From a virus, in IMG/VR virus record IMGVR_UViG_3300020021_000035, positions 1 through 31,823 of that record: a stretch of 31,823 nt of DNA, one strand, 5' to 3'. Position 1 is the stretch's first letter. Each line of letters opens with the position of its first letter. Shown here piece by piece: positions 9,613-31,823 of this stretch. The notes beneath the pieces are model-generated. The model was not told where the DNA came from and searched no databases. It saw only the letters and a list, made by a program, of their open reading frames with translations. The position numbers were made by a program, and so were the translations under genes.

Positions 9613-9637
9613 TGGCGATGATCGGGGAAGGTAATCT

Positions 9638-12226: not shown

Positions 12227-12239
12227 TAGGATCGAACTC

Positions 12240-12559: not shown

Positions 12560-12891
12560 TGGCGCAACTGAGAATGAAGGATGTCGAGCGAATTGTCAGG
12601 ACATCGCCATACAAGTTCTACGAAGTGGGTGGCAAGAAAGTGTTTCCGTTCATAGCTACAACTGGCATCATCACCGCAGAAGTGGCGATCATTTTGTATC
12701 ATCCCGAGAACCCTTGCGACGATGGAATGCAGGAAGGTGGGCCATTCGCGGAGGGTCTTCAGGTGTGGCAGAAGGCGATAACCTTCACGATCAAAGTGTC
12801 GGTATTGGTCGAGGCTTCCGAGGAAAAACTAGAGGAAGCGCTTCGCCTTGGCAATGAAGAGATTGAAAACTGGCTGAAAGGAACCAAATAA
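12559..12891 (+). CDS. hypothetical protein (110 aa)
   Basis: A 110-aa protein with a beta-rich middle (KVFPFIATTGIITAEVAIIL and KAITFTIKVSVLVEA) and a C-terminal amphipathic helix. No motif tied to a known function. CAGGAG precedes the start. It overlaps the scaffold gene by one base (AATGG). Possibly a minor head protein, by position only. Confidence 0.6.
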   Translation: MAQLRMKDVERIVRTSPYKFYEVGGKKVFPFIATTGIITAEVAIILYHPENPCDDGMQEGGPFAEGLQVWQKAITFTIKVSVLVEASEEKLEEALRLGNEEIENWLKGTK

Positions 12892-14006
12892 TGGCCGAAG
12901 ACCTCGGAGCCGTACTAGAAGCACCCGTAGAGGGAGTAGTCGAAGAAGTAACTCCTGCAGTTGAATCCGAGGTTGCAGAGCCTGTCGCTGAAGAAGTCAA
13001 GGGCGACGAGCGTGTCATGCCCCAGTGGATCAGGAATCTCAAGGCCACGGACCCGGCAGCGTTCAAGGATGCCAAAGCCTCTTTCTTCGGTAAGCGCGCA
13101 CTCGATGAAAAACTGAAAGACTTCGACCTTGACGGCACAAAAGGCTGGCTGGAAGAGTTAGGCGGAAGAGAGGCTATCGCCGCTAAAGTCACTGAACTCG
13201 AAGGTAAAGCGACTGAACTGGATGACATCAGCTCCAAACTGGTCAACGGCGATCCTACCCTAATCTCAGACTTGCGCGAGGTTTCACCTGAAGGCTTCGC
13301 CAAGCTCGCACCAATCGTAGCCGAGCAATGGGCCCAAGCAGACCCCGAAGGTTGGGGCGCGGCGATGTCCGGCATTATGGCCGCGACGATTCAGCAGAAC
13401 GGCATCCCGATGTTCCTCGAAAAGATGGGGATGCTTCTGGAGTTCGGCAAGACTGACGACGTCGCGAAGATGGTTGCGCAGCTCAAAGAGTGGTCAGGAT
13501 CGTTTCAGGCTAAGGCCTCTGCGCCAAGAACTGTCCAGCAGGCAAAAGGCCCGGACAAACTGGCAGAGCGCGAGCAGGCCTTGAATGAACGCGACCAGCA
13601 GCTATTCAACACCGAGATGCAGCGCAGCGTTGACAGCTTCCGCGATCCTTTGATTACCAAGGAACTCGACTCCTTCATCAAGCGCCGCCCGAATGACAAT
13701 GACGCAAAAGACTTGGCCATCAGCACGGTTCGCTCTGAAGTCGTAGCGAGGCTCAAGGCCGATGAAAAGTATCAGAATTCACTGAATGCTTTGTGGGCCC
13801 GCAAGGACAAAGACGGCGCCATGCGGCTGATCAAGAGCCGAGAGACGGCGGCGATTACCGAAATTGCCCCTAAGGTTGGACGCACGATCTTTGGTAACCC
13901 GGCAGCGGCGAAGACTGAAGAGAAGAAGGTTGCCGCAAAGAGCCCGACTTTCCCGGCGGCGGCGAAGTCTTCTGACAAGTTCGACGCGATCTGGAACTCT
14001 CGCTAA
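12891..14006 (+). CDS. scaffolding protein
   Basis: A 371-aa acidic, helix-rich protein between portal and coat genes: a Glu/Val-rich low-complexity N-terminus (1-45), then helical segments, a Q/E-rich coiled coil about 220-245 (KLAEREQALNERDQQL), and a basic Ala/Lys-rich C-terminus. These match phage scaffolds, which nucleate coat assembly through a basic C-terminal tail and leave before or during packaging. No protease motif is visible. The identification rests on position and composition, not on motif conservation. Confidence 0.75.
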   Translation: MAEDLGAVLEAPVEGVVEEVTPAVESEVAEPVAEEVKGDERVMPQWIRNLKATDPAAFKDAKASFFGKRALDEKLKDFDLDGTKGWLEELGGREAIAAKVTELEGKATELDDISSKLVNGDPTLISDLREVSPEGFAKLAPIVAEQWAQADPEGWGAAMSGIMAATIQQNGIPMFLEKMGMLLEFGKTDDVAKMVAQLKEWSGSFQAKASAPRTVQQAKGPDKLAEREQALNERDQQLFNTEMQRSVDSFRDPLITKELDSFIKRRPNDNDAKDLAISTVRSEVVARLKADEKYQNSLNALWARKDKDGAMRLIKSRETAAITEIAPKVGRTIFGNPAAAKTEEKKVAAKSPTFPAAAKSSDKFDAIWNSR

Positions 14007-14011
14007 ACGTG

Positions 14012-14203
14012 ATGCCGATTCCAGAGTCGGTGCGAATTTATAACGAAGCTCAATGGTGGTATTTCCTCCATTTAGGAGTGCCGACCATCATCATCGTATT
14101 TGCCGCCTATGTCGTTATGGCATGGCGGGAGTATCGCCAAGATACCGACTTCTCCGAAAAATCAGAGAACGAGAATCCTCTGCGAATTACCCCAAAAGTT
14201 TAG
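14012..14203 (+). CDS. single-span membrane protein (63 aa)
   Basis: A 63-aa protein with one hydrophobic helix at about 20-37 (HLGVPTIIIVFAAYVVMAW) and a charged C-terminal tail. GTG 14009 directly precedes ATG 14012; neither has a Shine-Dalgarno sequence, so 64 aa is possible. A membrane protein between scaffold and major capsid genes is unusual. The hydrophobic run supports translation, but the evidence is modest. Confidence 0.45.
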   Translation: MPIPESVRIYNEAQWWYFLHLGVPTIIIVFAAYVVMAWREYRQDTDFSEKSENENPLRITPKV

Positions 14204-14358
14204 AACTACCTGACCGAACCCCACTTCCTCCACGCCAGAGGCTAAACGGCGGCCCTCGGGGTGAGGTTGATTTATCGCTAAAGTCCCAACTCCGCAAAAC
14301 CCAAGCGGGCCGCAAGGCGAACGGGTGACCCTCGCGCATTCCACACCGAGGTATCACC
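14204..14358 (+). other. 155-nt leader region before the coat gene
   Basis: No convincing gene. Only weak short stems are visible (for example CCTC...GAGG near 14253-14267). CCGAGGTATCACC supplies the coat gene's ribosome binding site. A late promoter or mRNA-processing site could sit here, since coat protein is needed in large excess, but no clear -10/-35 is recognisable. Confidence 0.3.
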
Positions 14359-15660
14359 ATGGCAGGACCTATTGGAAATGGCGCAGCAGAAGTAGCGGCA
14401 GAACTTGAAAAGGTTCGGGATAAACTCCCTGAACTGTTCGCCGTCGAAGACACGTTTTTCAACCTCGTCAACGAGCGCACTCAGAAAGACAAAGTTTCCT
14501 ACCGTCCGGAGCGCATCCCGTTCCAGATCTCTAACGGCGTCAAGGGTCGTGGTGGCAGTCTTCTCGACGGCCAGGACCTTGGCCGCGGCGGCGGACCTCA
14601 GTTGGCCTTCGGCAGCATGGCTCCGGTTGAATTTGACTGGATTATCGAATGGACCAAGCATGCGGAGATTGCAACCAATTCGCGTGAGAAGTCTATCGAG
14701 GATTACGCCAAGCTGATCCTGAAGGCCCACATGAAGGCCGCGCAGAACGACCTTGATTCGCTCATCATCTTCGGAGATGGCGTGAACACGGTCGGCATCG
14801 TAACCCCCAACGTCAATGTCGCCGGTTCGCCCTTCTATACGGCCGGCACTCCTGCCATCATCTACGTAGACAATGCGTCTCGGTTCCGCCAGGGAGCCGA
14901 TTACGACTTGTACAACGGCGGTCCTGGAACAGGGCTTACCGAAACCATCACCATCACCGGCATCGATTACGGCAATAGTGCGCTGTATATCGCTACCAGT
15001 CCAGCTACGGCTCCCGTCTCGGGTGCTTACCTGATCTTCAATAACTCTTCTGGAGTTGCAGGATCTGGCATCAACGGCATCCAGACGCTCAACCAGACAA
15101 CCGCTGGCGGAACGTTCATGGGAGTGTCGAAGACTGCCTTCCCTGGAAACTTCCAGTCCTCGGCAATCAACGCACAGGCAGCTACGCTAACCCCGCAGCT
15201 CGCCCGTCTTTTGCTGAATACCCTGATCATGAACGCAGGTGTTGAGGAGCCCGACAAAGCCTCGTACCGCTTCATGACCGGACTTGGGCAGAAGGCAGCT
15301 TGGGAGAATACGGCGATTGCGCAGACTCAGGTGATTCAACCTGGAGACGCGAAGGCGCACGATATGCTCCCCGGCACCCAGATCACCACCATCGGCGGAA
15401 TCAAGATGACAGCTTCGCGGAAGTACATTCCGGGACGCATCGATCTGCTTGATATCAGCACATGGTTCATCTCCGAAGTCCAGCCGCTGGATTACTACTC
15501 CGTCGGCGCACAGGAGATGTGGCCTGTTTATGGTGCTTCGGGTGGCCTCGCCTCAGCCATGCTGAAGTACATGATTTGGGTCGGCAACATCGGTTGCGAG
15601 AATCCCAAGAAAAATGCCATCCTCTACAACCTCGCACCGGTAAGCGGCTTCAGCTTCTAA
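14359..15660 (+). CDS. major capsid protein
   Basis: A 433-aa protein directly downstream of scaffold. It has an N-terminal helical arm (AAEVAAELEKVRDKLPELF), then RTQKDKVSYRPERIPFQIS, an A-type domain pattern, and a Gly/Thr-rich insertion about 175-275 that probably forms an extra beta domain. The end is ENPKKNAILYNLAP. Size and order fit an HK97-fold coat of a podovirus. The insertion resembles I-domain-like decorations; this is inferred from composition. It forms the icosahedral shell. Confidence 0.85.
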   Translation: MAGPIGNGAAEVAAELEKVRDKLPELFAVEDTFFNLVNERTQKDKVSYRPERIPFQISNGVKGRGGSLLDGQDLGRGGGPQLAFGSMAPVEFDWIIEWTKHAEIATNSREKSIEDYAKLILKAHMKAAQNDLDSLIIFGDGVNTVGIVTPNVNVAGSPFYTAGTPAIIYVDNASRFRQGADYDLYNGGPGTGLTETITITGIDYGNSALYIATSPATAPVSGAYLIFNNSSGVAGSGINGIQTLNQTTAGGTFMGVSKTAFPGNFQSSAINAQAATLTPQLARLLLNTLIMNAGVEEPDKASYRFMTGLGQKAAWENTAIAQTQVIQPGDAKAHDMLPGTQITTIGGIKMTASRKYIPGRIDLLDISTWFISEVQPLDYYSVGAQEMWPVYGASGGLASAMLKYMIWVGNIGCENPKKNAILYNLAPVSGFSF

Positions 15661-15668
15661 GGAGTTAA

Positions 15669-16205
15669 ATGCAGCCTAAGTATGAACTGGCCTTTCATCC
15701 GGTAGACCTGTCTCGCCATGGACTCAACCCCTATGGCGATCCTCTGTACCGGGTGATTTGGGCAGATACGCGTAAAACCAAAGTGATTCACCTGGGTAAG
15801 ATTCACATCTTACCCAGGTATTCACATGGCGAAGAGGTAAACGCTAAAGGCCACTGGGTTTTAGAGAAGTGGGCCCCCCCTGAAGTCATCGTCGGACTTA
15901 CAAGAGATCAGTACGAAGCGCTTCTGCTGACGTTTCCCAGCGCTGCCGCCGAAGACTATCCCGAAAAGGGAGATTACGAGCTGAGCAGGATCTTCAATGA
16001 GGAGTCAGGGCCATTTTGCAAGAGCATCGATGAGATAGCCCTGCACAAACAACTTTATTTCCATAAATGGCGATTCGAGCACACGACAAATGCAGAACGG
16101 CTACAGGAGACCGTGGTTGCTGAGGATGCCAAAGAAGCAGAAGCAGATAAGACTTTTGACGCGCTGTTCGAACAAGCGCGAGAGGAGAATCAATGCCTGA
16201 AGTAG
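15669..16205 (+). CDS. conserved-looking head/neck protein (178 aa)
   Basis: A 178-aa protein immediately after the coat gene: an N-terminal beta-rich part (YRVIWADTRKTKVIHLGKIH) and an acidic helical C-terminus (VAEDAKEAEADKTFDALFEQ). AAGGAGTTAA precedes ATG 15669. A strong hairpin lies within the gene at 15790-15819. Possibly a head-completion protein by position; no motif confirms that. Confidence 0.65.
   Translation: MQPKYELAFHPVDLSRHGLNPYGDPLYRVIWADTRKTKVIHLGKIHILPRYSHGEEVNAKGHWVLEKWAPPEVIVGLTRDQYEALLLTFPSAAAEDYPEKGDYELSRIFNEESGPFCKSIDEIALHKQLYFHKWRFEHTTNAERLQETVVAEDAKEAEADKTFDALFEQAREENQCLK
15790..15819 (+). repeat. perfect 13-bp inverted repeat inside a CDS
   Basis: ACCTGGGTAAGAT (15790-15802) and ATCTTACCCAGGT (15807-15819) are exact reverse complements around a 4-nt loop TCAC. 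It spans codons for HLGKIHILPRY. GATTCAC occurs at 15785-15791 and 15800-15806, with ATTCAC at 15820-15825. No U-tract follows, so a terminator is unlikely. It could be an RNA stability or processing element or a protein-binding site. Confidence 0.75.
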
Positions 16206-16933
16206 CAGTAGGACAACGCCGCGTAGCCAACCTCATGCCACTAACCGATAAGCAGTTGCGCGATGCGCAACAGGATCTGGTTTACATCTTCAACGTCTCG
16301 CCTTACCCTCAAACGGCTTTCGTGGAGAAGCAATATGTTATCCCGGCCCGCCAAAAGGGAAAGCGTATCTCGGAGCCCCTGGTCATTCCCGGAGTGGTTT
16401 ATTCCACGATCTACAAGGCAGGCGAGTATCAGTGGATCGGCCGCGACGGAATTGAAGTCGCGCAGGAGATCATCGGGACGTTTCGGATGCTCGATCCCAG
16501 CCAGAACATTACCAGACTCGGAGTTTTTATCTCCGACAGCGCCATCCCCTCCGAAGAGGAAACTGCGAAGGCGGAAGAGGTGTGGTTCGAGCGGTGCAGC
16601 CAGAAGGTTGCCGAGGGTGATCAGCTTGCAGCAATCAATGGAGGAATTGTCGATATCGGCGGCGGCCGGACGGCTTCCAACATCGGCAAAGACCATCGTA
16701 TCGCCCTTGAGGAGATTGGCCAGAAACGGGCGTGGAGCGGTGCCAATCAAAAGATGATCGTCTGTGAAGAGTGCGGCGAGTCGAATATGCCCGCGGCGGC
16801 ACGTTGCAAGAATGCGGACTGCCGTTGCGTGTTCGATGAGGCGAAATGCCGCCAGCGGTTCCCTGAGATGTTCGCGCATGAGACTGAAGCCAAGCGCGGC
16901 CCCGGTCGCCCTCCTAAGGAAGTTGCAGCGTAA
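16193..16933 (+). CDS. virion-associated protein with C-terminal zinc ribbon and AT-hook-like tail
   Basis: A 246-aa protein. The first 170 residues read as a compact structural domain (VYIFNVSPYPQTAF; TFRMLDPSQNITRLGVFISD). A zinc ribbon follows with C191, C194, C205 and C210/C212, then a basic tail KRGPGRPPK (235-242) whose GRP core matches AT-hook DNA-binding motifs. It could contact packaged DNA near the neck, or host DNA; both are inference. Overlaps neighbours by 13 nt and 1 nt. Confidence 0.65.
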   Translation: MPEVAVGQRRVANLMPLTDKQLRDAQQDLVYIFNVSPYPQTAFVEKQYVIPARQKGKRISEPLVIPGVVYSTIYKAGEYQWIGRDGIEVAQEIIGTFRMLDPSQNITRLGVFISDSAIPSEEETAKAEEVWFERCSQKVAEGDQLAAINGGIVDIGGGRTASNIGKDHRIALEEIGQKRAWSGANQKMIVCEECGESNMPAAARCKNADCRCVFDEAKCRQRFPEMFAHETEAKRGPGRPPKEVAA

Positions 16934-18080: not shown

Positions 18081-21000
18081 TTGCTCAACGTTGAAGGTTT
18101 GACGGAGATAGGCCTAACAATTTTTGGCGGCAACAATTTAGACATGCAGCCAACGGATTTGCCCCAAGGCCTGTCTCCGGACAACTCCGATTGCGCATTC
18201 TTGCCAGGCTCAGTCTTCACCAGGCCATCCCTGCTTCGATTGGCGACGATGGGCACGACAGCTCAAGTCGTCTATACCTCGACCTTCTTAAAACCTGACG
18301 GGACAGTTTCGCAACTGACCTTCACTTCGGACGGCAAGATGTACGCCGACGGAGTTCAGTTTGGATCTACTCAGGCAGGCAACAGGTTTTCTACATGCAA
18401 TGCCTTCGGAAAGGTGTATATCGCCATTTCGAACGGAACTTACGGGGCTGACGTGCCGTTGCAGTACACGCCGGAAGGGTTTCTCGACAGGGTTTCACAG
18501 GACGGCCCCGGAGCTGGCCCGACGCTAGGGAATCTTTCTCTCGCTTCCTCGAGCATCGCCTCAGGTTCGAGGACAAGCAACGAGGTAACCTTAGTCACCT
18601 CGACGCCGCACAATCTCTTGCAGGGCTATCTCGCCACCATAAGCGGGGTAGACGCCTTCATTGAAAACCTGACGTCTATCGTCATGGACAACTCGACTCT
18701 TCCAAACATCGCAGTCGCGACCGTCCCAACCCCTCACGGATTTGTACCTGGAACCACAATAGCCATCAACGACGTTCAGCCTACAGTCATAGGCGGGACG
18801 ATGACGGCTTGGCTGAGGACTGACGGAATTGTTCTGGTCACGATGTCAGCTGATCATGGCTTGCAGATCGGCTCTACGCCGTTGGTTCAATTGAACGCGG
18901 CAGGCTTCGGGCCGGTCATCGTTCTCTCAGTTCCGTCCTTGACGACCTTCACCTTCGCGAACTCGGGAGGTAATGGTTCAGGCACTTCAGGCGGTGTCAT
19001 GCTGCCGTGGCCTGTCGCCTCAGGGACGCTCTTTACTGTTTCAGAAGTGCCAAGCCCGACGACCTTTCAGTTTTCGATCATCGTCACGGATGCGACTTGG
19101 ACGACAGGAGATATTTCGTTCGACTGGGACGGGTCGTTTTACGTTGACTCGGTAATTTCTCCGACCTCGTTCACTTATCCGCAGATCGGACCCGATGCAA
19201 CAATAAGTTCGGGCGGGACAGTCATCCCTACCGGGCAGCTTTCTCCAGGAAATCATTCCTGTGTCGAGATATTCCTCACGCGGACCGGGTACCTGACAAT
19301 TCCCAGCCCTCCAGTCAAGCTCATCGCGAGCGGCGGCCAATATTTATCGCTGACAACTGCGGCGATCGGACCTCCCAATATCGTTGCGCGGTGGTTCGCC
19401 TTCACCGGAGCCAACGGCGGTAACTATTTCGTGCTGCCTGTTGCGCCGCGAGATCCAACAGGCAATTTTCTCATCGGGACTTCGACGGTCATCCCGGACA
19501 ATTCAACGACCACGATCGTATTCGATTTCACCGACGAAGCTTTGTTTGCTGGCATAGCAATTGATATCCCCGGAAACAACTTATTCCGGCAGGAGATTCT
19601 TGGACCGTGCATGAGTTTCTTCTCTTACGCCTCCAGACTTTTGCCGTGGGGCGAGAGAAACAAGATTCAGCAGTTTTTCAACATGGGATTTGAGGGCGGC
19701 GTTTTCTCCAGCGCTCCGAATGTTCCTTTGGGCTGGACACTCACCGGCTCGGACGGTTTATTGACGACAGGAGACTATGGATTAGCTTGGAAGGCAACAA
19801 CTGCAACGCTAAGCCAGACCTTCTATCAGGACGACGAAGGCATTGCAATTGCGCAGCCGAACACCTTGTACACCTTCAGGCTCTGGGTCAATGGGACGGC
19901 TAAGGCAACAATCAGTTCGGTCTCGACAGGGTTTTCTGCTACGGCAACAGTCACAGCCGCAGGGGCATATGGACAGGCTAACTTCAGCCTCAAAACACCT
20001 TCGGTCATTCCTCCAGACTTCCTCGTCACCTTCTCAACAGTCGGAACAGCGACTTTGGACGAGATGGAGATTATCTTTACCCTGAATCCTCGCAGGCTTA
20101 CTACAAGAGCTTCCTATGTCAACAATCCCGAGGCCTTTGATGGGGTAACAGGACTTCTCGGACCTCAAGGCGATCCTCACCCAGTCTGGGGGATGGAGGA
20201 GCGCAAAGACGTGCTCTGCTTACTGACCAATGGGCCGGAAGGGTCACTGTATGAAACCGAGGATACGTCTTCAGGTGAACCGGTTACGTGGGACATCAGG
20301 CACATCGCCTCGAAATGCGGTCTCGTCTCAGTTTGGGGCGTAGCGAAGTTTGAGGATTGGTTTTCGTGGACTTCGGACACTGGGCTAAGAATCTTCGACG
20401 GCGCCACAGTCGAGAAGATGAGCCAAGAAATTCAACCATGGTGGGACGCGCTCAATCCCACAGGAAAGCAGTTCATGGTCTTGGCCAATGATCCTTACAC
20501 CCGAAGAGTCTACGTCATTGGCTCTACCGCCTTCGCGACGAACAACGTGATGTACGTAATGGACTACCGAGATTTGAATACGGCAGGACTTCTGGCCAAT
20601 TCCGGTACTTTACGAGTCGGGTATTCGGGGAAAGTCATCACCACCGACCTCACAAGAAAATGGTCACCATGGTCGATGACGATGAATTACTGCGGATTAT
20701 TGACTCTTTCAACTGGCGAAGCTGTCATGGCCTTCTGTGGGGGAACCGGGGGTAATCTCAGCACTCCGCTGCATTCGGCAGTCTACGAGTTGCAAGAGGG
20801 TGAAATTAGCGGCGTCGATGCGGATTACGGGCCTTTCTGGCAGAACTCGACTTATCCAACCTACTTCTTTGTTGCCGCAGATGATGCCGAGCAAAGACAG
20901 CTTGGAACTCACAGGCTCAACCATCAGTTCATGACGCTCAACTGCAGCGGGATTGGATCAATCTTCGTCGTCCCGAATCTCGACCGGATCGGAAACACCG

Positions 21001-21218
21001 GAACGGCAACGCGGGCCCTTGCTGTAACCGAAACGATGGACCGAGACTTAGAGTTTGGTTTGAATCTCGCAGCAGAAAGAGTCAGCTATAGGATTTGCTG
21101 CCAGCCTTCCGGTCCTCAACCCGCCGCGCCTGATTCGCCGGCAGGATTCCGCATTTCGTCATTGGTCGTCGGAGTCAAGACTCACCCGTTCAGCCCGATC
21201 AGAGGGAAAAATAGCTGA
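18081..21218 (+). CDS. large tail-nozzle-like (tail tubular B-type) protein
   Basis: A 1045-aa protein. The N-terminus GGNNLDMQPTDLPQGLSPDN then PGSVFTRPSLLR matches the opening of podovirus tail tubular/nozzle proteins, and WSWTSDTGLRIFDGA-like sequence with SQEIQPWWDALNP (about 750-792) is also typical of them. They form the lower tail through which DNA passes. Residues about 170-375 hold three imperfect PHG/PHN...G...I beta modules that look like an insertion. TTG 18081 is used: it overlaps TAA and the next ATG (18144) would remove the conserved start. Confidence 0.75.
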   Translation: MLNVEGLTEIGLTIFGGNNLDMQPTDLPQGLSPDNSDCAFLPGSVFTRPSLLRLATMGTTAQVVYTSTFLKPDGTVSQLTFTSDGKMYADGVQFGSTQAGNRFSTCNAFGKVYIAISNGTYGADVPLQYTPEGFLDRVSQDGPGAGPTLGNLSLASSSIASGSRTSNEVTLVTSTPHNLLQGYLATISGVDAFIENLTSIVMDNSTLPNIAVATVPTPHGFVPGTTIAINDVQPTVIGGTMTAWLRTDGIVLVTMSADHGLQIGSTPLVQLNAAGFGPVIVLSVPSLTTFTFANSGGNGSGTSGGVMLPWPVASGTLFTVSEVPSPTTFQFSIIVTDATWTTGDISFDWDGSFYVDSVISPTSFTYPQIGPDATISSGGTVIPTGQLSPGNHSCVEIFLTRTGYLTIPSPPVKLIASGGQYLSLTTAAIGPPNIVARWFAFTGANGGNYFVLPVAPRDPTGNFLIGTSTVIPDNSTTTIVFDFTDEALFAGIAIDIPGNNLFRQEILGPCMSFFSYASRLLPWGERNKIQQFFNMGFEGGVFSSAPNVPLGWTLTGSDGLLTTGDYGLAWKATTATLSQTFYQDDEGIAIAQPNTLYTFRLWVNGTAKATISSVSTGFSATATVTAAGAYGQANFSLKTPSVIPPDFLVTFSTVGTATLDEMEIIFTLNPRRLTTRASYVNNPEAFDGVTGLLGPQGDPHPVWGMEERKDVLCLLTNGPEGSLYETEDTSSGEPVTWDIRHIASKCGLVSVWGVAKFEDWFSWTSDTGLRIFDGATVEKMSQEIQPWWDALNPTGKQFMVLANDPYTRRVYVIGSTAFATNNVMYVMDYRDLNTAGLLANSGTLRVGYSGKVITTDLTRKWSPWSMTMNYCGLLTLSTGEAVMAFCGGTGGNLSTPLHSAVYELQEGEISGVDADYGPFWQNSTYPTYFFVAADDAEQRQLGTHRLNHQFMTLNCSGIGSIFVVPNLDRIGNTGTATRALAVTETMDRDLEFGLNLAAERVSYRICCQPSGPQPAAPDSPAGFRISSLVVGVKTHPFSPIRGKNS

Positions 21219-21739: not shown

Positions 21740-22125
21740 TTCGCAACGTCGAAGAGAAAGACTTGCCTAGACTGCGAGAGCTTCACAAGGCCACAGGCTT
21801 TGAGTGGGAGTTTCCCGAGAATCTTCTATCGGCAAAGGTCTGGGTAGATGAAAATGACGAGCCGGTGATGATGGTGGGCGCGAAAGTTATTGCCGAGGCT
21901 GTCCTGATTTCCTCGAAACAGCAGACGCCGGGGATGCGCTTGGCAATTCTTCGGGAACTCTTTGACGCAGTGAAAAACGAGTGCATGGGTAACGGAATTA
22001 CCGAGGCGATTACATGGATTCCAGAGGTTATTTGGAGACCGTACTCGCGCAGACTCAAAGGGCTTGGCTGGGTGGAATCGAAGTATAAAACAATGTGTTT
22101 TTTAGCGAAGGGGAAAAATGCCTAA
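21736..22125 (+). CDS. GNAT-family-like acetyltransferase
   Basis: A 129-aa protein starting MIRNVEEKDLPRLRELH, the usual opening of GNAT N-acetyltransferases, followed by KVWVDENDEPVMMVGAKVIA strands, a helix MRLAILRELFDAVKNECMG, and a C-terminal WRPYSRRLKGLGWVES segment. The canonical Q/RxxGxG/A acetyl-CoA loop is not obvious. Phages often carry such genes within tail operons, with unknown targets. ATGA overlap with the previous stop sets the start. Confidence 0.65.
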   Translation: MIRNVEEKDLPRLRELHKATGFEWEFPENLLSAKVWVDENDEPVMMVGAKVIAEAVLISSKQQTPGMRLAILRELFDAVKNECMGNGITEAITWIPEVIWRPYSRRLKGLGWVESKYKTMCFLAKGKNA

Positions 22126-22624
22126 GGGTGTAGAGAAAAACGCGTTAGCAGCGCAAGGGAATGCTGTCAATCAATCCCAAGCTGCGTATAACACGGTAAA
22201 CCCGATCTATTCGTCCATGGCAGCGTCTCCGCAGGGCTTTACGCCTACCGAGAAGGCCAACGCACTCACGGCGTCCTCGCAGTCGCTTGGGGGCGGCGTT
22301 GCGGGGGCCGTGGGGCAAGGTGGGCTATTGGCTGCAAGGACAGGTAATGCTGGAGGCGCGACGGCCGCACTTGATGATGCCGCGAGAGGCGCGGCAGTCC
22401 AGCAGTCCACTAATGCTCTTGACGTTCAGAACCAAAGCGATCAACTCGCGACCCAAAATCAGAGAGTCGGACTTGCTGGGCTGAATGGAATTTACAACAA
22501 CGCGAACAGCACAGCTTTGGGCAATCTCAACACAGCAAACAGCGCATCGCAGGCCAACGCGGCTAATAAGCTGAGCTATCTCAAGCTGGGACTCAATACC
22601 TTAGGATCGGCGGCGGGCGCGTAA
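22118..22624 (+). CDS. ejection-type internal virion protein (168 aa, Ala/Asn-rich)
   Basis: A 168-aa protein almost entirely of Ala, Gly, Asn, Gln, Ser and Leu, with predicted helices and a Gly-rich centre (SLGGGVAGAVGQGG). Low complexity and a place between tail and fibre genes resemble podovirus ejection proteins that leave the capsid ahead of DNA. Identification is by composition and position. It overlaps neighbours by 8 nt and 1 nt. Confidence 0.55.
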   Translation: MPKGVEKNALAAQGNAVNQSQAAYNTVNPIYSSMAASPQGFTPTEKANALTASSQSLGGGVAGAVGQGGLLAARTGNAGGATAALDDAARGAAVQQSTNALDVQNQSDQLATQNQRVGLAGLNGIYNNANSTALGNLNTANSASQANAANKLSYLKLGLNTLGSAAGA

Positions 22625-24018
22625 TGGCGAATCCCCTGATTGCCAATTTCCTAGCCAATCAACAGGCAACGACTCCTCCCTTTCTCGGGACATCAATCTC
22701 CATGCCCAGTTCTGCGCCTTCAATGGGTGCGCCCGTTTTGCCGAACGTCACGGCTCCGCAGGGAACTCTTCAGGGCGACATGAATGAGCACGGCAGACTC
22801 GTAGATACAGGATCTGGAGTCGATCAGGTTCAGAACCCACTTCTCAGAGGAATCGCGAAGGGTGCCGATATCCTCGGGTCGGTCTTCGCACCCAGAATTG
22901 CGCAATTTATCCCCGGCACCACCTTGCATCACCAATTACTGACGAATCAGGCAGAACAAAGAGTTCAGCAGGACGAAGCGCAGAGCAAGGACGCTGCGGA
23001 TACAGCCAATACTGTTGCCACGACAGCGCACACCAACGCTGCGACTACTGGATTGCCGACAGAGCAAGCCGACGCCCATACTGCTAGCGGTGCTAGCGTG
23101 CGCCTGACAAATGATCGGGCGGATGCGCTAGAGAATGCACCGGACCCGGTTCAGACTCTGCAACAGGCTCACGCCGCCGCCGTGCTTAGAGAGGTGCAGG
23201 CTGGACGCGATCCCTCGCAGGCTCCCGACGTCCAGCATCTCTCCGATGCCATAACGTCGCTTCAAAAGCAACCCGCAGAGCAGGGTGTTGGCAAGACTAC
23301 AGACATTGTGGGGCCTGATGGAAAAGTCCATACGATGGGATATAACCAGAAGACGAGCAAGTTTGACATAGACGAAGGCCTGAGCGGATTCAGGCCTGCA
23401 GTAACGAATGTCAACGCGGGAACGGCTGCCATTGACCGGGAATCCAAGCAGTTTGGGACGCCCTACCAGAAGTCCCTGGATGCCTCTAATTCCCAGCTTG
23501 AAAAGATCGCGGACGCAAGAGCGATGATTAATGGCAACGCAGAGGCTCAGGGCCTTGGCGTCCCTAAGGTTCTCACCGCATTAGTTGGCGGCCAGGGAAC
23601 CGGAGTTCGCATTACGCAGGCAGAGCTTACCTCTATTGCCCACGCTCGCGGCCTCTCCGGAGACGTAGAAGGAACGCTTAGCAAATGGGCTGGCAAGGGT
23701 GCGCTGACTGGGGAGCAGCAGAAGCAGCTCACGCAGATCATGGACGATGTAAAGGCGCGCCTTCTCCAGAAACAGCAGATCGCCAGCGGTACGCTCGACA
23801 CAATCAATGGAGCCTCTAGCCGAGATGAAATTATCGCAGCAGACAAATCGGCGAGACAGCAGTTTGCAAGCCTTGAAAACGGAGGCACTCAGTCTTCCGG
23901 AGGAAGCGGCCTAGCCGTTAGCCTCAAAGAGGCGATGGCGCTCCCTCAGTTCAAAGGAAAATCGCAGGATGAAGTAACCGCAGCAATCAAAGCGGCCGGT
24001 CACGCGGTGGCTCCGTAA
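22624..24018 (+). CDS. ejection-type internal virion protein (464 aa)
   Basis: A 464-aa protein: a hydrophobic-Pro N-terminus, a Thr/Ala-rich helical middle (about 115-170), and a charged C-terminal half (LDASNSQLEKIADARAMIN; LTGEQQKQLTQIMDDVKARL). The last part, LKEAMALPQFKGKSQDEV, resembles a small helical binding motif. No enzyme motif, including muramidase, is visible. Probably co-expressed with its two flanking low-complexity genes. Confidence 0.55.
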   Translation: MANPLIANFLANQQATTPPFLGTSISMPSSAPSMGAPVLPNVTAPQGTLQGDMNEHGRLVDTGSGVDQVQNPLLRGIAKGADILGSVFAPRIAQFIPGTTLHHQLLTNQAEQRVQQDEAQSKDAADTANTVATTAHTNAATTGLPTEQADAHTASGASVRLTNDRADALENAPDPVQTLQQAHAAAVLREVQAGRDPSQAPDVQHLSDAITSLQKQPAEQGVGKTTDIVGPDGKVHTMGYNQKTSKFDIDEGLSGFRPAVTNVNAGTAAIDRESKQFGTPYQKSLDASNSQLEKIADARAMINGNAEAQGLGVPKVLTALVGGQGTGVRITQAELTSIAHARGLSGDVEGTLSKWAGKGALTGEQQKQLTQIMDDVKARLLQKQQIASGTLDTINGASSRDEIIAADKSARQQFASLENGGTQSSGGSGLAVSLKEAMALPQFKGKSQDEVTAAIKAAGHAVAP

Positions 24019-25757
24019 TGGGCCAGCAAGATCCGTTCGCCTCGATAGCTAAACCGGTTCAGAATGATCCGTTCGCCGCCATCGCTAAGCCTGTCGCGGC
24101 CGCGCCCGCTGATACACGCAATGGCATCCAGAAGGCCGTAGACGCTGCCAGCGCGCCCGATTCTCCTGAGACGCGTGCAGCGCGAATCTCTTCGGAAGGA
24201 CCGGTCCTTGGCCGTATTTCCAACGCAGCAAACGCCTTCGGAAGTGGGGCGTCACAGATGCTATTCCAGCCGCTTGCGCATCCCATTGACGCGGCCGCGG
24301 GGCTGGCCAATGGAATCGCGCACAGCTCACCCTGGTCGGGAGTGGCAGACCCGGATAATCCGCTCACCAAGATGATTCAATCGACAGTGGGAGATTTTCA
24401 CGACAACGGGGCCGCAGAGGCTCTCCCTCGCCTTGGAGGTCAGGTTGCCGGCGGCATCGCTGCCGGAGAGCTTGGAGGCCAACTGGTAAGGGCGGCAGCT
24501 CCGATCATAAAGGCCGCGGGTAGCACTGCGAGAACAATGGCAATCGGTGACCCTGATGCGGCGGCCTTGCATGGCCTGAAAATTCCCGCTGGCTCTGGCA
24601 AAGTTCAGCCCATGCAAAATAGTGTGCAGGCTGCGCGCCCATATCTTCAAGGTGTCAACTCTTTGGAGGATCTGCAGGCGAGGATTCCGCAGGCTAAAGA
24701 TGAAATCTGGTCACCTTATCAGGAAACGATAGATAAGGCCGGAAATCACCCCGTCAATGGCCCCGATGGACCCACGACCCTTTCAGCGTTAGAGCAGGAG
24801 CGCCTGCAGCTATCAGCCCTAAATAGAGGGCTCAAGGCGGGCGATCCCAACGCGCTGCAGCTTGCGCAGCAAAAGGGCATGAATCAAGCGGACCTTCTCG
24901 ATAGGGAAAAGGCTGTCACTTCGGCTCTCGACCCAGAGCTTTCCAAGTTCGGCATCGACCCTCAAGCTATCCGCGGAAACTTCGGAGCGGTGTCGAGAAT
25001 TGGTAACCAGATAAGCGGTAAAAGTACTCTTCTCGAAAAGCCTCAACCGTTCGGGATCGGGAAAATGTTGGATATCCGTCTCGATAACCCGAAGAGTTGG
25101 CTCGGCAAGCCGGTGGAAGGGGTTAGGGACCTGATCGCAGGCCGGCCACTGTTCAGTGGTAGCCCTACAGATGTAGGGATCAGCGAAGGCTTCAGATCTG
25201 CAGGGCCTAAGCCAGATTTGGGCAGCTTCACCCCGCCGCAGTCTCAGAAACTTCTCGGCTCCAGCATTCCCGGGATACCGCATGAGTCGCCGTTCGTAAA
25301 GCAGCCAATAGTTACCCCGCCGCCATCGCAAACTGCGTTCAGGTTGCCATCGTCGGCCTCTGACGGGGAGACTCAGCCCATGCTGGGGATAAAAGCAAAT
25401 ATCCCTCAATCGGTATCGGACGATTTCTCTAGAACTAGAGTGGTGCCTTCAGGCGGCGAATTGAGGCGCATGGGAGGAACTGTCCTGCCACCAGAGACGA
25501 AGGGATTAGCGCTACCGTCTGGAGCTGATCTGCTAAGGTTGCCATCCTCCGCGGGCGCTGGAGAAACGCAGCCGATGATCGGTATCAGCAACAATTACCC
25601 AGATCTTGCCACGGATTTCGCGAGGGAGCGCGTGCCGCCCAACGTGTTTTCGCAGGCACAGCCGATCAACAACAAGCTTTTCTATGCTGATAGCAATGGC
25701 CAGATAGTTCCGGAACGCCTTGGACTCCCAGCCCCAAAACCCAAGGCCAAGAAGTAG
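24018..25757 (+). CDS. repeat-containing ejection-type virion protein (579 aa)
   Basis: A 579-aa protein. The N-terminus contains a tandem motif: DPFASIAKPV (5-14) and DPFAAIAKPV (17-26). An amphipathic/hydrophobic region follows (about 65-175). Near the C-terminus a module of about 35 residues occurs twice, starting at 442 and 507 (RLPSSASDGETQPMLGI and RLPSSAGAGETQPMIGI). Basic C-terminus ending PKPKAKK. It could be internalised in the capsid and inserted in the membrane at infection. It ends the run of + genes before a 281-nt stretch with no + strand gene. Confidence 0.6.
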   Translation: MGQQDPFASIAKPVQNDPFAAIAKPVAAAPADTRNGIQKAVDAASAPDSPETRAARISSEGPVLGRISNAANAFGSGASQMLFQPLAHPIDAAAGLANGIAHSSPWSGVADPDNPLTKMIQSTVGDFHDNGAAEALPRLGGQVAGGIAAGELGGQLVRAAAPIIKAAGSTARTMAIGDPDAAALHGLKIPAGSGKVQPMQNSVQAARPYLQGVNSLEDLQARIPQAKDEIWSPYQETIDKAGNHPVNGPDGPTTLSALEQERLQLSALNRGLKAGDPNALQLAQQKGMNQADLLDREKAVTSALDPELSKFGIDPQAIRGNFGAVSRIGNQISGKSTLLEKPQPFGIGKMLDIRLDNPKSWLGKPVEGVRDLIAGRPLFSGSPTDVGISEGFRSAGPKPDLGSFTPPQSQKLLGSSIPGIPHESPFVKQPIVTPPPSQTAFRLPSSASDGETQPMLGIKANIPQSVSDDFSRTRVVPSGGELRRMGGTVLPPETKGLALPSGADLLRLPSSAGAGETQPMIGISNNYPDLATDFARERVPPNVFSQAQPINNKLFYADSNGQIVPERLGLPAPKPKAKK

Positions 25758-26038: not shown

Positions 26039-29000
26039 ATGAATAAGCTGTTGATTTCGTGCGCCTTACTGATGACCGGGACGGCCTTGGCCCAGACTGC
26101 CACTCGGTTTGACTCAAGCGTCACGACGACGGCAACAAATGTTCCAATCAATGCCCAAGCTCCAGTTTTGACGGTGCCCAACGCGATCGTGACCGTATGC
26201 GCTTTCCCGGCCACGGGCATCCCTTGCACCAACACCATTCCCATCTATCAGGATCAAGGCCTCACGACTCAAGCTGACAACCCCCTGACGACAGACCCTA
26301 AAGGCAGATTCGGCTTCTGGCTAGCTTCAGGGCAGTATTCCTACTCAGTTCAGAATCAGCAGGGGCAGAACGTCGGCAACTTTTCTCTAAGCCTCGGCGG
26401 ATCTGGAGGCAATGGAGCTCCAGTCGGTCTAGGGGCGCGGCAAGACTCGAATATTAGCGGCTCAGCTTTCATCAATGAGGGCATCTACAACACTCAGGTC
26501 TACGCTACCGGGACGAATACCGGCCAAGGGAACTTCTTCAACAGTGCCAACTGTATTGCCAATGGCGCTTGCGCGGGAGTCATTCCTCCGACCTCGCCCG
26601 ACACCTCAGCACCGGGGCTTGGATTCTCGACCTCGAAGCTTTCCTCAATCGTCACCGACTACCGCGCCAACAGCATCGCGATAGTGTCTTTCAATCCTCA
26701 ACTGACTTTTGCCTCTGCCTTTGACGGTGGAGCACAGTCAGTGCATTTCAGTCAGGTGGACTACACCGAAGCCAGCCCGTCACCAATTCAGGGAAATACG
26801 CAGGCGCTCTTATCCGAGGAAGTTCTATTCGGCGATCCCGGTTTCAGCAACGGTCTCAGCGGATGCCCGGATTATTGCCCAAACGCTCCGCATACCTCCG
26901 TAGCTCAGTGGTCGCTTCACAACGTCCATGACCTGTTTACGTCGTACAACGGGTCCGGCATCAACAACGTCAACACGAAACAAACGGTATTTGGTGGTAC
27001 CGGAGACTCGCAGGACGAGGCAGACTTTGACTTTTACATGGGTGGATGCGTAGCGCCCTCTGACGAGTGCCACCACTGGCAGTCGGTACATATCGCCACG
27101 GCAGGAGACTATGGGGGAGTCATCGCTACGGCTACCGGCTCTACCAACTTCTTCGTCACCACGACAGCTAATTCCTCATCGCAGGGGCAGGGAAGATTCC
27201 TCATCGGCCTCAACCCGGTTACGGGAACGGATAGCACCCCACTCCAGAATTTAATTGTGTCAGCTATTACCAAACCGGGCGATGGTGGTGTTCCTTACGG
27301 GGAGGTAGTTTTTCAAGCGTCGAATATTCCCAGCAGCACCTTTCAAGGAGTTATGGCGACGGATTGCATTGTTCCCGTACAAGAAGGCGGGGTGGCGACT
27401 TGCACCGGAAGCGTGACTGTTACTTCGGGGCAACTATGCGCAGTTGGAGCGTGGAACGGGTCTTCCTGCGTAGGCTCGGCTCCGGTTATTGTGTGCACGG
27501 CATTAAATACGGGAAACATCTTCAATTTCGCGCAGCCCATTTCTGTTACCTCTCCCTCGGGAGGAGCGCAGAATCTTACGATGTCCATCCATCGCACCGC
27601 AGAAGTTGGAAGCGTTGTCTTTCAGGGCGGGATGTGCGGCGGGTATATCGCTACAAACGAGTCTCAGGTTATTGCTAACGCGGTGGGGGTTCAAGGCTTT
27701 CCCCTGATTGGCTCTTTGGGAGGAAGCGGTGTTGCTTATGCCAATTACGACGCCAGTCAGGTATGGGCGCCTATTCCTAATCCCGGTTCGTCTTGGGGAT
27801 CAAGGGACACCGGTAACACCCAGGCGGCTCATGGATTTTCTGTCGTCAGCTTGGCAAGACACTCAAATGTTGTAACTGGCACGAATGTCACTGGATTTGA
27901 CTCTGACAAGTGGAAAGAGTTGGGTGGAGCGTTCGACTTCAATGTCAGTGGTTGCACTTCCGATCCGACACTGAACAGTATTTCAGTAGGCGCTCCGATT
28001 ATCTACGCCGGCCCAGACCCCAGCGTCGGCAACCCCCACGCTGGCCAGATTGCCTATTCGCAAACAGGACCGGATACGGTAACCCCTTGCACCGCAGTCA
28101 TCGCTACCCAGTTCACCACTGCGACCTTGTTCCCCGCCGCCGAAGTCTACGACGTGATGAACCATGCAGCGGCGGTGGTTGATGGTACGTTTGTCACCAG
28201 CTATCAACCTGCCTTCACTGTTGGCGTGCCGGTCGATTCCCCCACGCACTATGCGGCTGGGGTCAACGGCATTCAGATATCTGGTGAATCTGGACAGCCT
28301 CTTCTCGACAACACCAACTACACCTCGATCAGTCACGGGTATTCGTCGCTGGTGGGGTCGGGATTCTTTGCACAGAACTTCGCCACCAACGTCATGGGTT
28401 CGAACGGCATCCAGAACCCGCAAAACATCCTGCAAAGCGACGGGCTATTCGATACCGGAATTTTTATGGGCGCTGCTCCTCCCAACAATGGAAGTGCTAT
28501 TCGAATCGGTTCCCCCAGCTCTTTGTTCGCTAATCAGAACAGTTCCTTTCGGAGGTACGGTCTGTTACAGCTCGACTGGGTTCTTAACAATGCAAGAACT
28601 CAGCTCCTGTTCGACGATGATACCCAATCCTATTGGTGGAACTATAACTTCAGTCAATACCCCTCGGTCATTTTCGGACCGACGCTGACAAACTTTGCGG
28701 TGCAGGCGGGTACAAATAATAACGTTCCAACGCAAGTGGGGGAACTGCGATACGCCGAGTTCGGATCGAACGGCAACACTCCCTTTGGTCCACTGTTCCA
28801 CGTCAAGCAGTGCGCTCCCCTCACGCCTCCTTCGGTGACCAGCATCTGCTACTCCTCGTTCACGCCAACCAATGCGGTTGTTACTCAAGGCGGTACGGCA
28901 GGCACGACGGAGTACATCTACATCCTTCAATGGAACGATGTCGCTGGCCCAGCTTACGGCAGCCCGATATTTACCTTCACGGGTGCCGCTACTCTGAGCG

Positions 29001-29485
29001 GGAGCAATTTCAACAGCATCCCATGCAGCGACATGCCGACAGGGACAACGGGCATCATCTGGGAGTTCAATAACTCCATCGGCTTCCAGAAAGTTGGTAC
29101 GTGCAGCAGTCCAAGCACCGTCCTCAACGATACGGGAACCTATACACAGGACGTCGGGCCGAACGGAACGATTGCGGGCGCACTCCAGATCAGCGGAGGC
29201 TTTGAGGCAACCGGACTTCTTGGAGGCTATTACTTCAGCCAGCCGGAGATCTACGGAACGACGACTCCCGCCCTTACTCGCACCGCTGGAATTACCCAGA
29301 CGGCAGCAGGTCAACTCAGCGTCGATACAACGGCGCAAGGCAATGGCTTGGGAACGCTCAAAGCCGCCGAATTCAGCGGGCCTGCCGTCGCCCCTTCGGG
29401 CGCGTGCACGGTCATAGGCTGGGCATTCTCTCAAGACGGCCACGCGACTTTCTGTAACGGCACTAGCTGGGCCACCAAAATATAA
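26039..29485 (+). CDS. large fibre-like surface protein with Sec signal peptide (1148 aa)
   Basis: The N-terminus MNKLLISCALLMTGTALA|Q is a textbook type I signal peptide (K3, hydrophobic core, A-L-A). A 100-aa small beta domain follows (AIVTVCAFPATGIPC, then NPLTTDPKGRFGFWLASGQY), with C54 and C63 possibly disulfide-bonded. The rest is Gly/Ser/Thr/Asn-rich beta sequence to a terminal domain with ATFCNGTSWATK. Size, composition and gene position fit a tail fibre or adhesin. The start is set by GAGGGAATTC before ATG 26039. No depolymerase active site was found. The paired Cys and signal suggest export. Confidence 0.75.
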   Translation: MNKLLISCALLMTGTALAQTATRFDSSVTTTATNVPINAQAPVLTVPNAIVTVCAFPATGIPCTNTIPIYQDQGLTTQADNPLTTDPKGRFGFWLASGQYSYSVQNQQGQNVGNFSLSLGGSGGNGAPVGLGARQDSNISGSAFINEGIYNTQVYATGTNTGQGNFFNSANCIANGACAGVIPPTSPDTSAPGLGFSTSKLSSIVTDYRANSIAIVSFNPQLTFASAFDGGAQSVHFSQVDYTEASPSPIQGNTQALLSEEVLFGDPGFSNGLSGCPDYCPNAPHTSVAQWSLHNVHDLFTSYNGSGINNVNTKQTVFGGTGDSQDEADFDFYMGGCVAPSDECHHWQSVHIATAGDYGGVIATATGSTNFFVTTTANSSSQGQGRFLIGLNPVTGTDSTPLQNLIVSAITKPGDGGVPYGEVVFQASNIPSSTFQGVMATDCIVPVQEGGVATCTGSVTVTSGQLCAVGAWNGSSCVGSAPVIVCTALNTGNIFNFAQPISVTSPSGGAQNLTMSIHRTAEVGSVVFQGGMCGGYIATNESQVIANAVGVQGFPLIGSLGGSGVAYANYDASQVWAPIPNPGSSWGSRDTGNTQAAHGFSVVSLARHSNVVTGTNVTGFDSDKWKELGGAFDFNVSGCTSDPTLNSISVGAPIIYAGPDPSVGNPHAGQIAYSQTGPDTVTPCTAVIATQFTTATLFPAAEVYDVMNHAAAVVDGTFVTSYQPAFTVGVPVDSPTHYAAGVNGIQISGESGQPLLDNTNYTSISHGYSSLVGSGFFAQNFATNVMGSNGIQNPQNILQSDGLFDTGIFMGAAPPNNGSAIRIGSPSSLFANQNSSFRRYGLLQLDWVLNNARTQLLFDDDTQSYWWNYNFSQYPSVIFGPTLTNFAVQAGTNNNVPTQVGELRYAEFGSNGNTPFGPLFHVKQCAPLTPPSVTSICYSSFTPTNAVVTQGGTAGTTEYIYILQWNDVAGPAYGSPIFTFTGAATLSGSNFNSIPCSDMPTGTTGIIWEFNNSIGFQKVGTCSSPSTVLNDTGTYTQDVGPNGTIAGALQISGGFEATGLLGGYYFSQPEIYGTTTPALTRTAGITQTAAGQLSVDTTAQGNGLGTLKAAEFSGPAVAPSGACTVIGWAFSQDGHATFCNGTSWATKI

Positions 29486-29495
29486 AGGAGAAACA

Positions 29496-31274
29496 ATGAA
29501 GCTACTCGCAGCTATCGCGGCCGCGTGCTTTTGTGCGTCTGCATTCGGACAAGGCGTCCGTTTCGATAAGAGAGTAGCCACAATTGCGTCCAATTACCCT
29601 CCGGGTTCGCAAGTGCCCGTGATGGCAATTCCCAACTCGACGGTCACGATCTGTACAGACGGGAACTGCGTCTCTCCAGCGAATATTTTCAGCAACCAAG
29701 GGCTGACGGTTCATGCTTCAAATCCGATGAAGTCAGACTTTCAGGGAAACTTTGGCTTTTGGGCTTCGCCGGGGAATTACTTTTACAAAGTCGTTTTGCC
29801 GACTGGAACATTTGTCGGGATCTTCCCGATTACGCTTGGCGGCTCGACAAGTGGGGGAGCGGTCAGTTCGGTCAATGGGCAGACTGGAACCGTTGTCCTC
29901 ACGGCTTCAAACGTTGGTGCTGATCCCTCTGGCGCGGCGGCTACAGCACAGGCGGCGGCAATCGCATCAGCGGCCTCCACTGCCCTTCAATTAGCCGGCG
30001 GAACGATGACAGGACCTATCGTGCTTCCAGGAGACCCCACAACCAACCTGCAGGCCTCTACGAAGCAGTATGTCGATGCGCACGGCGTCACCACTTTCAA
30101 TACTCGGGCTGGTGCCGTCACCTTGGCAGCCTCTGATGTAAACGGGGTGGGGACTATTTCTAATCCCACCACTGGGAATTCATCCACAGCCACGAACATC
30201 AACACCAACGGCACGGCCAATCAAATATGGGGAATGAACTCCGGAGCAACCGCGCAGGGCTGGCAGACGCTAACCCCGGGAACCACGACACTCCAAACCA
30301 ACGGAGCGAATATCAGCACTCAGACGGCCTTGAATCTCATCAACAGCACTGTGAACGGTGTGGGACTCACGGCGACATTCTCCAACCCTACCGGCAGCAG
30401 CGTAAAGGTGGAGGTCGGGGGAAGTTCCTACGGCGGCAATTCGGCGACAGCAACGAGCGCGACTACGGCGGCCAATCTCTCAGGTACGCCGACACTCCCA
30501 AATGGAACGTCAGCCACAACGCAAAGTCCTGGAGACAACACGACCAAGATTGCCACTGATGCCTTCGTGCTCGCGAATGCGTCCGCTCTGCCTGATTGCA
30601 CGGATACGAGTGGCGTTAGCTTCATCTGCACTGTTCCCGTAAGTGCTCCGTCTTTTAGCGCAACAGGAACGACTCCGGGAGCGATGAAGTTGCAGGCGGG
30701 TACGGGGTCGATCCCCACTCTTCCCACCAACTCAGCAGGCTTTGCAGCTCCAGTAACAGGAGGGACTGCATGGTTAGGCAAGCTTCCAGCGACGATCACG
30801 GCAGGAATTCTGCACTTTGCCGCACCGGCTACTGCTGATGGAGTCAATGAGTCGGTAATCACCTCTTCTGCGGTTTCACTCACTGCCGATGTAACCGGAG
30901 TTCTACCAGCCGCCAATATCGCTGCCGCACTTAGCAGTACGACCAGCGTCAATGGAACTACGATCCCGTCATCAGTGACTCTTACGCAGACCATCGCCAG
31001 CGGCACGTCGGCCCTTGGGACTTCAGCAATTGCCTCGGGCGCTTGCGCGACGGTAGTAACCACTACTGCAACAGGAGTCGCCAGCACGGACGCGATTAGC
31101 TGGAACGCAAACGGCTCGCTCAAAGCGATTACTGGGTACATTCCTTCAACCAGTGGCGGCCTGACGATTGCGGATTATCCAACAAGCGGCAACGTCAATT
31201 TCGATGTCTGCAACTGGACGAGCGCTTCAATCACGCCGGGTGCGGTCACTCTGAATTGGCGTGTTGTCCGATGA
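29496..31274 (+). CDS. tail-fibre-like protein with Sec signal peptide (592 aa)
   Basis: Signal peptide MKLLAAIAAACFCASAFG|Q, then the same type of N-terminal domain as the upstream gene (STVTICTDGNC, SDFQGNFGFWASPGNY). Two phage-fibre motifs follow, SSVNGQTGTVVLTASNVGA (124-142) and FNTRAGAVTLAASDV (201-215), plus LAGGTMTGPIVLPGDPT...ASTKQYVD (166-194), a known fibre repeat pattern. The C-terminal 100 aa (SAIASGACATVVTT...ITPGAVTLNWRVVR) look like a module seen in soil-phage fibres. AAAGGAGAAACA precedes ATG 29496. Confidence 0.8.
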   Translation: MKLLAAIAAACFCASAFGQGVRFDKRVATIASNYPPGSQVPVMAIPNSTVTICTDGNCVSPANIFSNQGLTVHASNPMKSDFQGNFGFWASPGNYFYKVVLPTGTFVGIFPITLGGSTSGGAVSSVNGQTGTVVLTASNVGADPSGAAATAQAAAIASAASTALQLAGGTMTGPIVLPGDPTTNLQASTKQYVDAHGVTTFNTRAGAVTLAASDVNGVGTISNPTTGNSSTATNINTNGTANQIWGMNSGATAQGWQTLTPGTTTLQTNGANISTQTALNLINSTVNGVGLTATFSNPTGSSVKVEVGGSSYGGNSATATSATTAANLSGTPTLPNGTSATTQSPGDNTTKIATDAFVLANASALPDCTDTSGVSFICTVPVSAPSFSATGTTPGAMKLQAGTGSIPTLPTNSAGFAAPVTGGTAWLGKLPATITAGILHFAAPATADGVNESVITSSAVSLTADVTGVLPAANIAAALSSTTSVNGTTIPSSVTLTQTIASGTSALGTSAIASGACATVVTTTATGVASTDAISWNANGSLKAITGYIPSTSGGLTIADYPTSGNVNFDVCNWTSASITPGAVTLNWRVVR

Positions 31275-31823
31275 TAAGACTGCTACTTTTCTCTCTCTTG
31301 ACTTCCTCGGCCTTCGCCCAATACATGCCTGCCGGGCCTCATTTCCCGTCATCGACGGGTGGAACCCTATCGTTTGTCCAAAAGGGAAATTGCACTATTG
31401 CTAATGCGTCAAGCACATGCACGGCGACGATGGGCGCGGCGCTGACGGCGGGAAACGGCTATATCTTCTCCTGCTATATCAACAATAGTTCCGCAACGTC
31501 GCAGGATCGCATCACCGGAGTAACGGCGGGCGGGACTTTGAAATTAGCTCCGGGGGCATCGACTCATGGTGGAGTTGTAAGTGGTACGGAAGGAAACACG
31601 GCCTTTACCACGGTCGCCTATATCCTTCCATCAACATCGACCGGCGGTTCCACCACTGAAGTCATCACGCTTAGCGCAGCTTCGTCTTCCACGGGTGGCA
31701 ACTGTGCTATCCATGAGTATCATCCGAGCGCCAATCCGAATAATGTTGCTCTCAGCCTTGACGGGTCCCTCACAAAGACGGCAGCCTGCACCTCATGCGC
31801 GAGTCTCGCGACGACAATCGATG
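31271..31823 (+). CDS. secreted or surface-type protein, third in series (partial, runs off window)
   Basis: An open frame of 184 codons with no stop before the window end. Signal peptide MIRLLLFSLLTSSAFA|Q (R3, hydrophobic core, A-F-A), then a Cys-containing beta-rich domain (GNCTIANASSTC; ATMGAALTAGNGYIFSCY). Its ATG overlaps the previous stop (ATGA), so it is translationally coupled to the fibre-like gene. It lacks the shared small N-terminal domain of the two genes before it. Function unknown; a fibre chaperone, tip or secreted accessory protein are all possible. Confidence 0.65.
   Translation, partial: MIRLLLFSLLTSSAFAQYMPAGPHFPSSTGGTLSFVQKGNCTIANASSTCTATMGAALTAGNGYIFSCYINNSSATSQDRITGVTAGGTLKLAPGASTHGGVVSGTEGNTAFTTVAYILPSTSTGGSTTEVITLSAASSSTGGNCAIHEYHPSANPNNVALSLDGSLTKTAACTSCASLATTID

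Follow-up and report, generated by a model that had tools for sequence, protein, structure and literature searches.

The textbook view is that tailed phages build the whole virion inside the cytoplasm, and ordinary tail spikes are proteins of that compartment. Why, then, do three consecutive fibre-like genes in the late structural operon of a podovirus each open with what reads as a signal peptide for the Sec pathway? The DNA analysed here (the window) is a virus record of 31,823 bases in a single contig, a fragment of a T7-like podovirus, and the genes in question begin at positions 26039, 29496 and 31271.

The three genes and their leaders

The features of the window, with the strand where assigned, are these:

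110-973, +: Queuine tRNA-ribosyltransferase-like protein near the left end (phrog_887, E 1e-65), which may belong to the 7-deazaguanine pathway
from 7443: small terminase, Sf6-type
from 7948: large terminase
9638-9937, +: small cysteine-rich Lar-like (restriction alleviation) protein, directly 5' of the putative portal gene (PF14354, below cut-off)
18081-21218, +: structural protein of the virion, occupying a tail-tube-B-like slot and serving as a marker of gene order, which L090-L093 share (phrog_3287, E 2e-4)
22118-22624, +: opening gene of the three-gene ejection/internal-protein slot, no cysteine; function putative, from order and composition
22624-24018, +: second gene of that slot, cysteine-free; function likewise putative
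24018-25757, +: third gene of that slot, cysteine-free, immediately 5' of the spike genes; function likewise putative
26039-29485, +: putative exported tail spike 1, 1148 aa, 23 Cys
26039-26092, +: its predicted Sec/SPase I signal peptide, MNKLLISCALLMTGTALA (rule-based test; architecture conserved in homologues)
26093-26422, +: its head-binding domain, with Cys54/Cys63 (A3 tailspike profile, E 1.4e-4; alignments A2 and A8)
29496-31274, +: putative exported tail spike/fibre 2, 592 aa, 8 Cys
29496-29549, +: its predicted Sec/SPase I signal peptide, MKLLAAIAAACFCASAFG (rule-based test)
29550-29855, +: its head-binding domain, with Cys53/Cys58 (AlphaFold2 model; top PDB matches Pan3 and Pam1 tailspike head-binding domains)
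29844-30080, +: module of tail-fibre type (residues 117-195) that contains LAGGTMTGPIVLPGDPTTNLQASTKQYVDA and matches the tail protein phrog_26941 at E 6e-7
30975-31271, +: C-terminal domain, residues 494-592 (57-77% identity with L004-L008)
31271-31823, +: third signal-peptide gene, opening with MIRLLLFSLLTSSAFA before Q, running off the contig end

The three genes lie on one strand inside the late structural operon, with a 10-base gap or an overlap between neighbours. The order of genes in the ejection slot is repeated in L090, L091, L105 and L107, and spike genes directly follow that slot in the window and in L090-L093, L105, L128 and L137; compare the isolates H6/1 and PBR31, in which an annotated ejection or internal protein sits just before the tailspike.

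The original prediction was that all three products carry a Sec signal peptide, a cleavage site and then paired cysteines, and this is borne out both by the sequence and by a rule-based test, which scores a positive n-region, an uncharged hydrophobic core and an A-x-A/G-type junction. With the predicted cut marked by a slash, the 26039 product reads MNKLLISCALLMTGTALA/QTATRFD (cut at ALA/Q), the 29496 product MKLLAAIAAACFCASAFG/QGVRFD (AFG/Q) and the 31271 product MIRLLLFSLLTSSAFA/QYMPAG (AFA/Q). The cysteine pair that follows lies in VTVCAFPATGIPC for 26039, in TICTDGNC for 29496 and in NCTIANASSTC for 31271. The absence of Cys at +1 excludes a lipoprotein signal. The rule flags 3 of the 28 window genes of at least 90 aa, exactly these three, which by n-region, core and cleavage motif are thus predicted Sec/SPase I substrates.

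That three such leaders in one operon are not a matter of chance, as had also been claimed, agrees with composition shuffles of each N-terminus, 9-10% of which pass, so that all three would pass by chance with a probability of ~0.001. A loose form of the rule proved weak across Ala-rich ORFs in a first shuffle control (44 flagged vs 33 expected), and for that reason a stricter rule and homologue controls were adopted. The stricter rule flags none of 266 genes of at least 250 aa from 80 control phage loci, as against 36 of 145 in acidobacterial loci. Dual starts, whereby an internal ATG would supply a signal-less isoform, were considered as a general device and rejected: 26039 has an ATG at codon 12, and several homologues are without one.

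Pfam gave no match for the three products, and PHROGs only the tail module of the 29496 product, in keeping with its earlier description as fibre-like; modules of the phrog_26941 type are common in fibres without a signal peptide. Residues 319-592 of the same product are matched at 64% by L003, and its C-terminal domain is common to the otherwise unlike phages L004-L008, in the manner of a mobile tip domain. A scan with the entire 26039 protein as query returned no relatives. For 31271, truncated where the contig stops, searches of phages and viral contigs turned up no relatives, and the signal peptide alone is established.

Identity of the domain behind the signal

What the original prediction overlooked is the domain that follows the cleavage site in 26039 and 29496. 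On the basis of sequence, profile and fold comparisons, its identification as a tailspike head-binding domain of the Pam1, Pan3, Sf6 and P22 type is well supported. The mature N-domains of the two window proteins are paralogous (44% identity over ~105 residues), and relatives in the viral contigs L089-L094 all have a signal peptide, with gene order kept in L090-L093. Searched against the PDB, a profile of 10 such mature N-domains (A2) finds tailspike head-binding domains as its five best matches, at marginal E values of 0.03-0.13. Canonical head-binding domains, those of Pam1, PBR31, H6/1 and others, were reached by way of a signal-less gene that L027 has in this slot. Aligned by hhalign with seven signal-less tailspike domains, the A2-type domains reach a probability of 94 (E 1.4e-7), and a profile-profile comparison with a subset gives 83 (E 9e-6). 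The canonical tailspike profile, A3, in turn recovers window protein 26039 at E 1.4e-4 and Pam1 at 8e-38.

The fold points the same way. From an alignment of 39 sequences, AlphaFold2 models the 29496 domain with a pLDDT of 90.7, although that alignment includes known head-binding domains, which steer the model, so that the fold match is not fully independent; with only 10 sequences the model is poor (pLDDT 47) and a fold search from it meaningless. Compared with 350,542 PDB chains, the better model places the Pan3 and Pam1 tailspike domains first, with VIA Z of 10.5 and 9.6, respectively, and Sf6 and P22, at ~8, among those that follow. Unrelated β-sandwiches attain Z of 7-8 against the same model, and the fold resembles transthyretin/CnaB-like β-sandwiches common in pilins and carboxypeptidases; the identification therefore relies on the phage matches ranking above these folds together with the sequence profiles. 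The earlier view that the exported proteins derive from virion components gains from the presence of this domain behind the signal in both 26039 and 29496, and we are confident that these genes encode genuine tail spikes bearing a selected signal peptide.

Recurrence among phages of Acidobacteriota

A search for homologues in Acidobacteriota genomes and phages, the check proposed along with the original prediction, came out in its favour. Among distinct head-binding-domain genes from related viruses and acidobacterial prophages, 37 of 40 have a signal peptide (33 called by rule, 4 by eye) vs 0 of 87 copies in other phages, where the controls were chosen for closeness to signal-less seeds and neither set is a random sample. 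Cysteine content differs likewise, at 1.90% in the acidobacterial-set genes vs 0.26% in the controls. The window-type domain is found in about a dozen more genomes, in some of them in a clear prophage setting, in one genome scan plus two acidobacterial orders. Where canonical head-binding domains occur in acidobacterial genomes of two orders, a signal peptide stands directly in front in 12 of 12 (2 of these called by eye). The signal sequences themselves diverge among homologues, although the pattern is kept, with Gln at +1 in 36 of the 37 signal-peptide genes (L140 being the exception). What is conserved is mainly the signal and the docking domain, the remainder usually being unalignable, as expected of modular receptor-binding proteins.

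Several further arrangements were seen in passing. In L137, a genome in the order of G002, adjacent signal-peptide spikes (7677-8921 and 8955-11258) bear one canonical and one window-type head-binding domain. Runs of signal-peptide fibre-like genes in other gene orders occur in the viral contigs L005 (1505-6748), L006 (4278-11988), L007 (6969-10584) and L008 (2904-9412), and the device may extend past Acidobacteriota. L008 also has a gene (9426-16324, +) whose product opens with a signal-like stretch and contains 76 cysteines in at least 2299 aa. By eye, some signal-peptide fibres (L016, L086) seemed to open with a second fibre N-terminal motif, TPNxGLxxPxxGxxxWGxxLN, a resemblance that a profile did not bear out.

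The signal-less acidobacterial copies, three in number (L107, L129 and L136), all lack the cysteine pair in the domain. L107 begins M-SGIRYDG and L129 M-AGIRYDS, where exported copies read G/QGVRFDS; after Met removal, the first residue of each aligns with Gln+1 of the exported copies. Across 52 genes, 32 have both a signal and at least two domain cysteines, five a signal and fewer (no cysteine pair in the domain), none the cysteines without the signal, and 15 neither. A tree requires a minimum of four switches of the signal label, two of which are imposed by well-supported branches, and places the signal-less copies L107 and L129 inside a signal-peptide clade. Joint changes of signal and cysteines amount to just 2-4 phylogenetically independent pairs, a number too small to reach significance, and their coupling is suggestive only.

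Isolates provide a related observation. Four of the five isolated Tunturiibacter phages, all four plaque-forming, carry signal-peptide fibre genes, at least two apiece: the podoviruses Tunturi 1 and 2, the siphovirus Tunturi 4 and the jumbo myovirus Tunturi 5 (L083, L086, L087 and L088). These genes are annotated as fibre, spike, pectin lyase or structural protein, and the long ones contain 6-34 cysteines. The Tunturi spike N-termini gave no match to the head-binding profiles. The annotated fibres of Tunturi 3, from the same host, have no signal peptides, from which it follows that the device is not obligatory. Neither signal peptides nor virion mass spectrometry figure in the published description of these phages (PMC11924767).

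Proposed export and docking, and comparison with known systems

Taken together, the signal architecture, head-binding-domain identity, tail-spike position, cysteine enrichment and acidobacterial recurrence, all of them sequence-based, suggest how such genes might be used. Acidobacteriota phages from soil appear to produce the spikes that recognise the host in secreted form, the cleavable signal being fused directly to the docking part, a fusion that suggests spikes folding outside the cytoplasm and joining particles at cell burst. Of the options originally offered, a periplasmic assembly step ranks as the best fit. The explanation that we favour, and consider reasonably probable, is that genuine tail spikes are Sec-exported, become folded and oxidised once in the periplasm, and attach to virions at lysis. 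Spikes or fibres would be made as Sec-secreted precursors with the signal directly before the virion-docking domain, and because the two adjoin, SPase I cleavage would recreate the N-terminus of an ordinary cytoplasmic spike. Once across the inner membrane, the spikes would fold, trimerise, form disulfides and wait in the periplasm, with capsid and tail assembly proceeding meanwhile in the cytoplasm. Phage heads assemble in the cytoplasm, so docking would have to wait for lysis, when holin and endolysin would bring spikes and particles together and the spikes would dock spontaneously on the tail hub. P22 tailspikes do add to heads in vitro. That the docking domain begins at the cleavage point would make best sense if it is the processed protein that docks, and the cysteines would fit oxidative folding.

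Both the homology and the signal peptides have good support; from them we infer in vivo cleavage, disulfides and late docking, and export, disulfides and late docking are plausible. For the late-docking mechanism in full, the balance tips slightly in favour. Opinion is evenly poised on the broadest statement, namely a tailed-phage morphogenesis with an extracytoplasmic final step, in which secreted spikes undergo oxidative folding, are kept in the periplasm and reach virions, complete in all else, only at lysis, taken jointly with a signal-peptide trait that is common among Acidobacteriota phages and has repeatedly switched state.

The strongest competitor, which we nonetheless think unlikely, is that these are exported spike-like proteins outside the virion, free depolymerases or adhesins that strip or mask the receptors of infected cells, keeping progeny from sticking to debris and superinfecting phages out. 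An extracellular role would suit the signal peptides and the enrichment in cysteine, some of the proteins carry enzyme-like domains (GDSL lipase, pectate-lyase-like, β-helix), and some relatives are temperate (L090, with an integrase-like gene, and others that are prophages in bacterial genomes). On the other hand, the best conserved part, right after the signal, is a docking domain that would then have no use, the genes lie in the slot of the tail spike, and neither the structural region of Tunturi 1 and 2 nor the window yielded a recognisable alternative spike candidate. Secreted decoys, an option raised at the outset, are for these reasons not favoured: tail-spike position in the late operon, virion-docking domain, and plaque-forming isolates that carry such genes.

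Less probable still is that the N-terminal stretch does not serve export at all and is a hydrophobic segment kept on a cytoplasmic spike for docking, trimerisation or membrane contact. This would bring the genes into line with ordinary spikes, and virion presence, export and cleavage are here predictions from sequence; yet a cleavage-type junction (A or G before Q) in 36 of 37 genes, the cysteine enrichment, signal-less relatives that start at the cleavage point and a leaderless Pam1-type spike (7eeq), whose domain begins at residue 1-2, all argue against it. Acquisition of host secreted proteins as cargo or lysogenic conversion genes, which the acidobacterial hosts of the relatives and the β-helix and lipase-like domains might recommend, is very improbable given the late structural position, the tailspike head-binding domain, the fibre modules and the occurrence of such genes in plaque-forming isolates, and the proposed conversion of the host surface is likewise not favoured, the genes lying inside the structural operon rather than outside it under their own control, as morons do.

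Tail spikes with a recognisable docking domain thus carry Sec signals in many acidobacterial phages, and a signal peptide is no ground for annotation pipelines to exclude a virion protein. If the preferred reading of export and late docking is true, spikes can use disulfides and departing virions could pick up a co-infecting phage's spikes at lysis; the Tunturi isolates make spike export directly testable.

Among known systems, the nearest are the podoviral tailspikes of Pam1 (7eeq), Pan3 (9vyg), Sf6 and P22 (gp9), whose N-terminal head-binding β-sandwich is homologous to the window domains and which share with the window spikes the slot after the ejection proteins and modular C-terminal parts. 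In these known spikes the docking domain comes first, without a signal peptide, and Cys are few, whereas those of the window type have a Sec signal (an 18-aa leader before the docking domain in the window spikes) and many Cys; by sequence, the window spikes are best described as a variant of the podoviral tailspike set apart by its leader. Tunturi 1, 2, 4 and 5 resemble the window in having consecutive signal-peptide fibre or spike genes in isolated Acidobacteriota phages, and differ in spike N-termini that do not match the head-binding profiles (PMC11924767). Sec-exported endolysins, such as Lys44 of fOg44 and the SAR endolysins (reviewed in PMC6116005), are likewise late phage proteins that take the host Sec route and wait outside the inner membrane until lysis, as proposed for the spikes, but they are lysis enzymes rather than receptor-binding proteins of the virion. 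Finally, bacterial DGRs diversify signal-peptide surface proteins, which are exported binding proteins, as is proposed for the spikes here; the absence of signal peptides from phage DGR targets was taken as support for phage origin (PMC6199706), and in contrast to that pattern, the proteins described here are of phage origin and do carry signal peptides.
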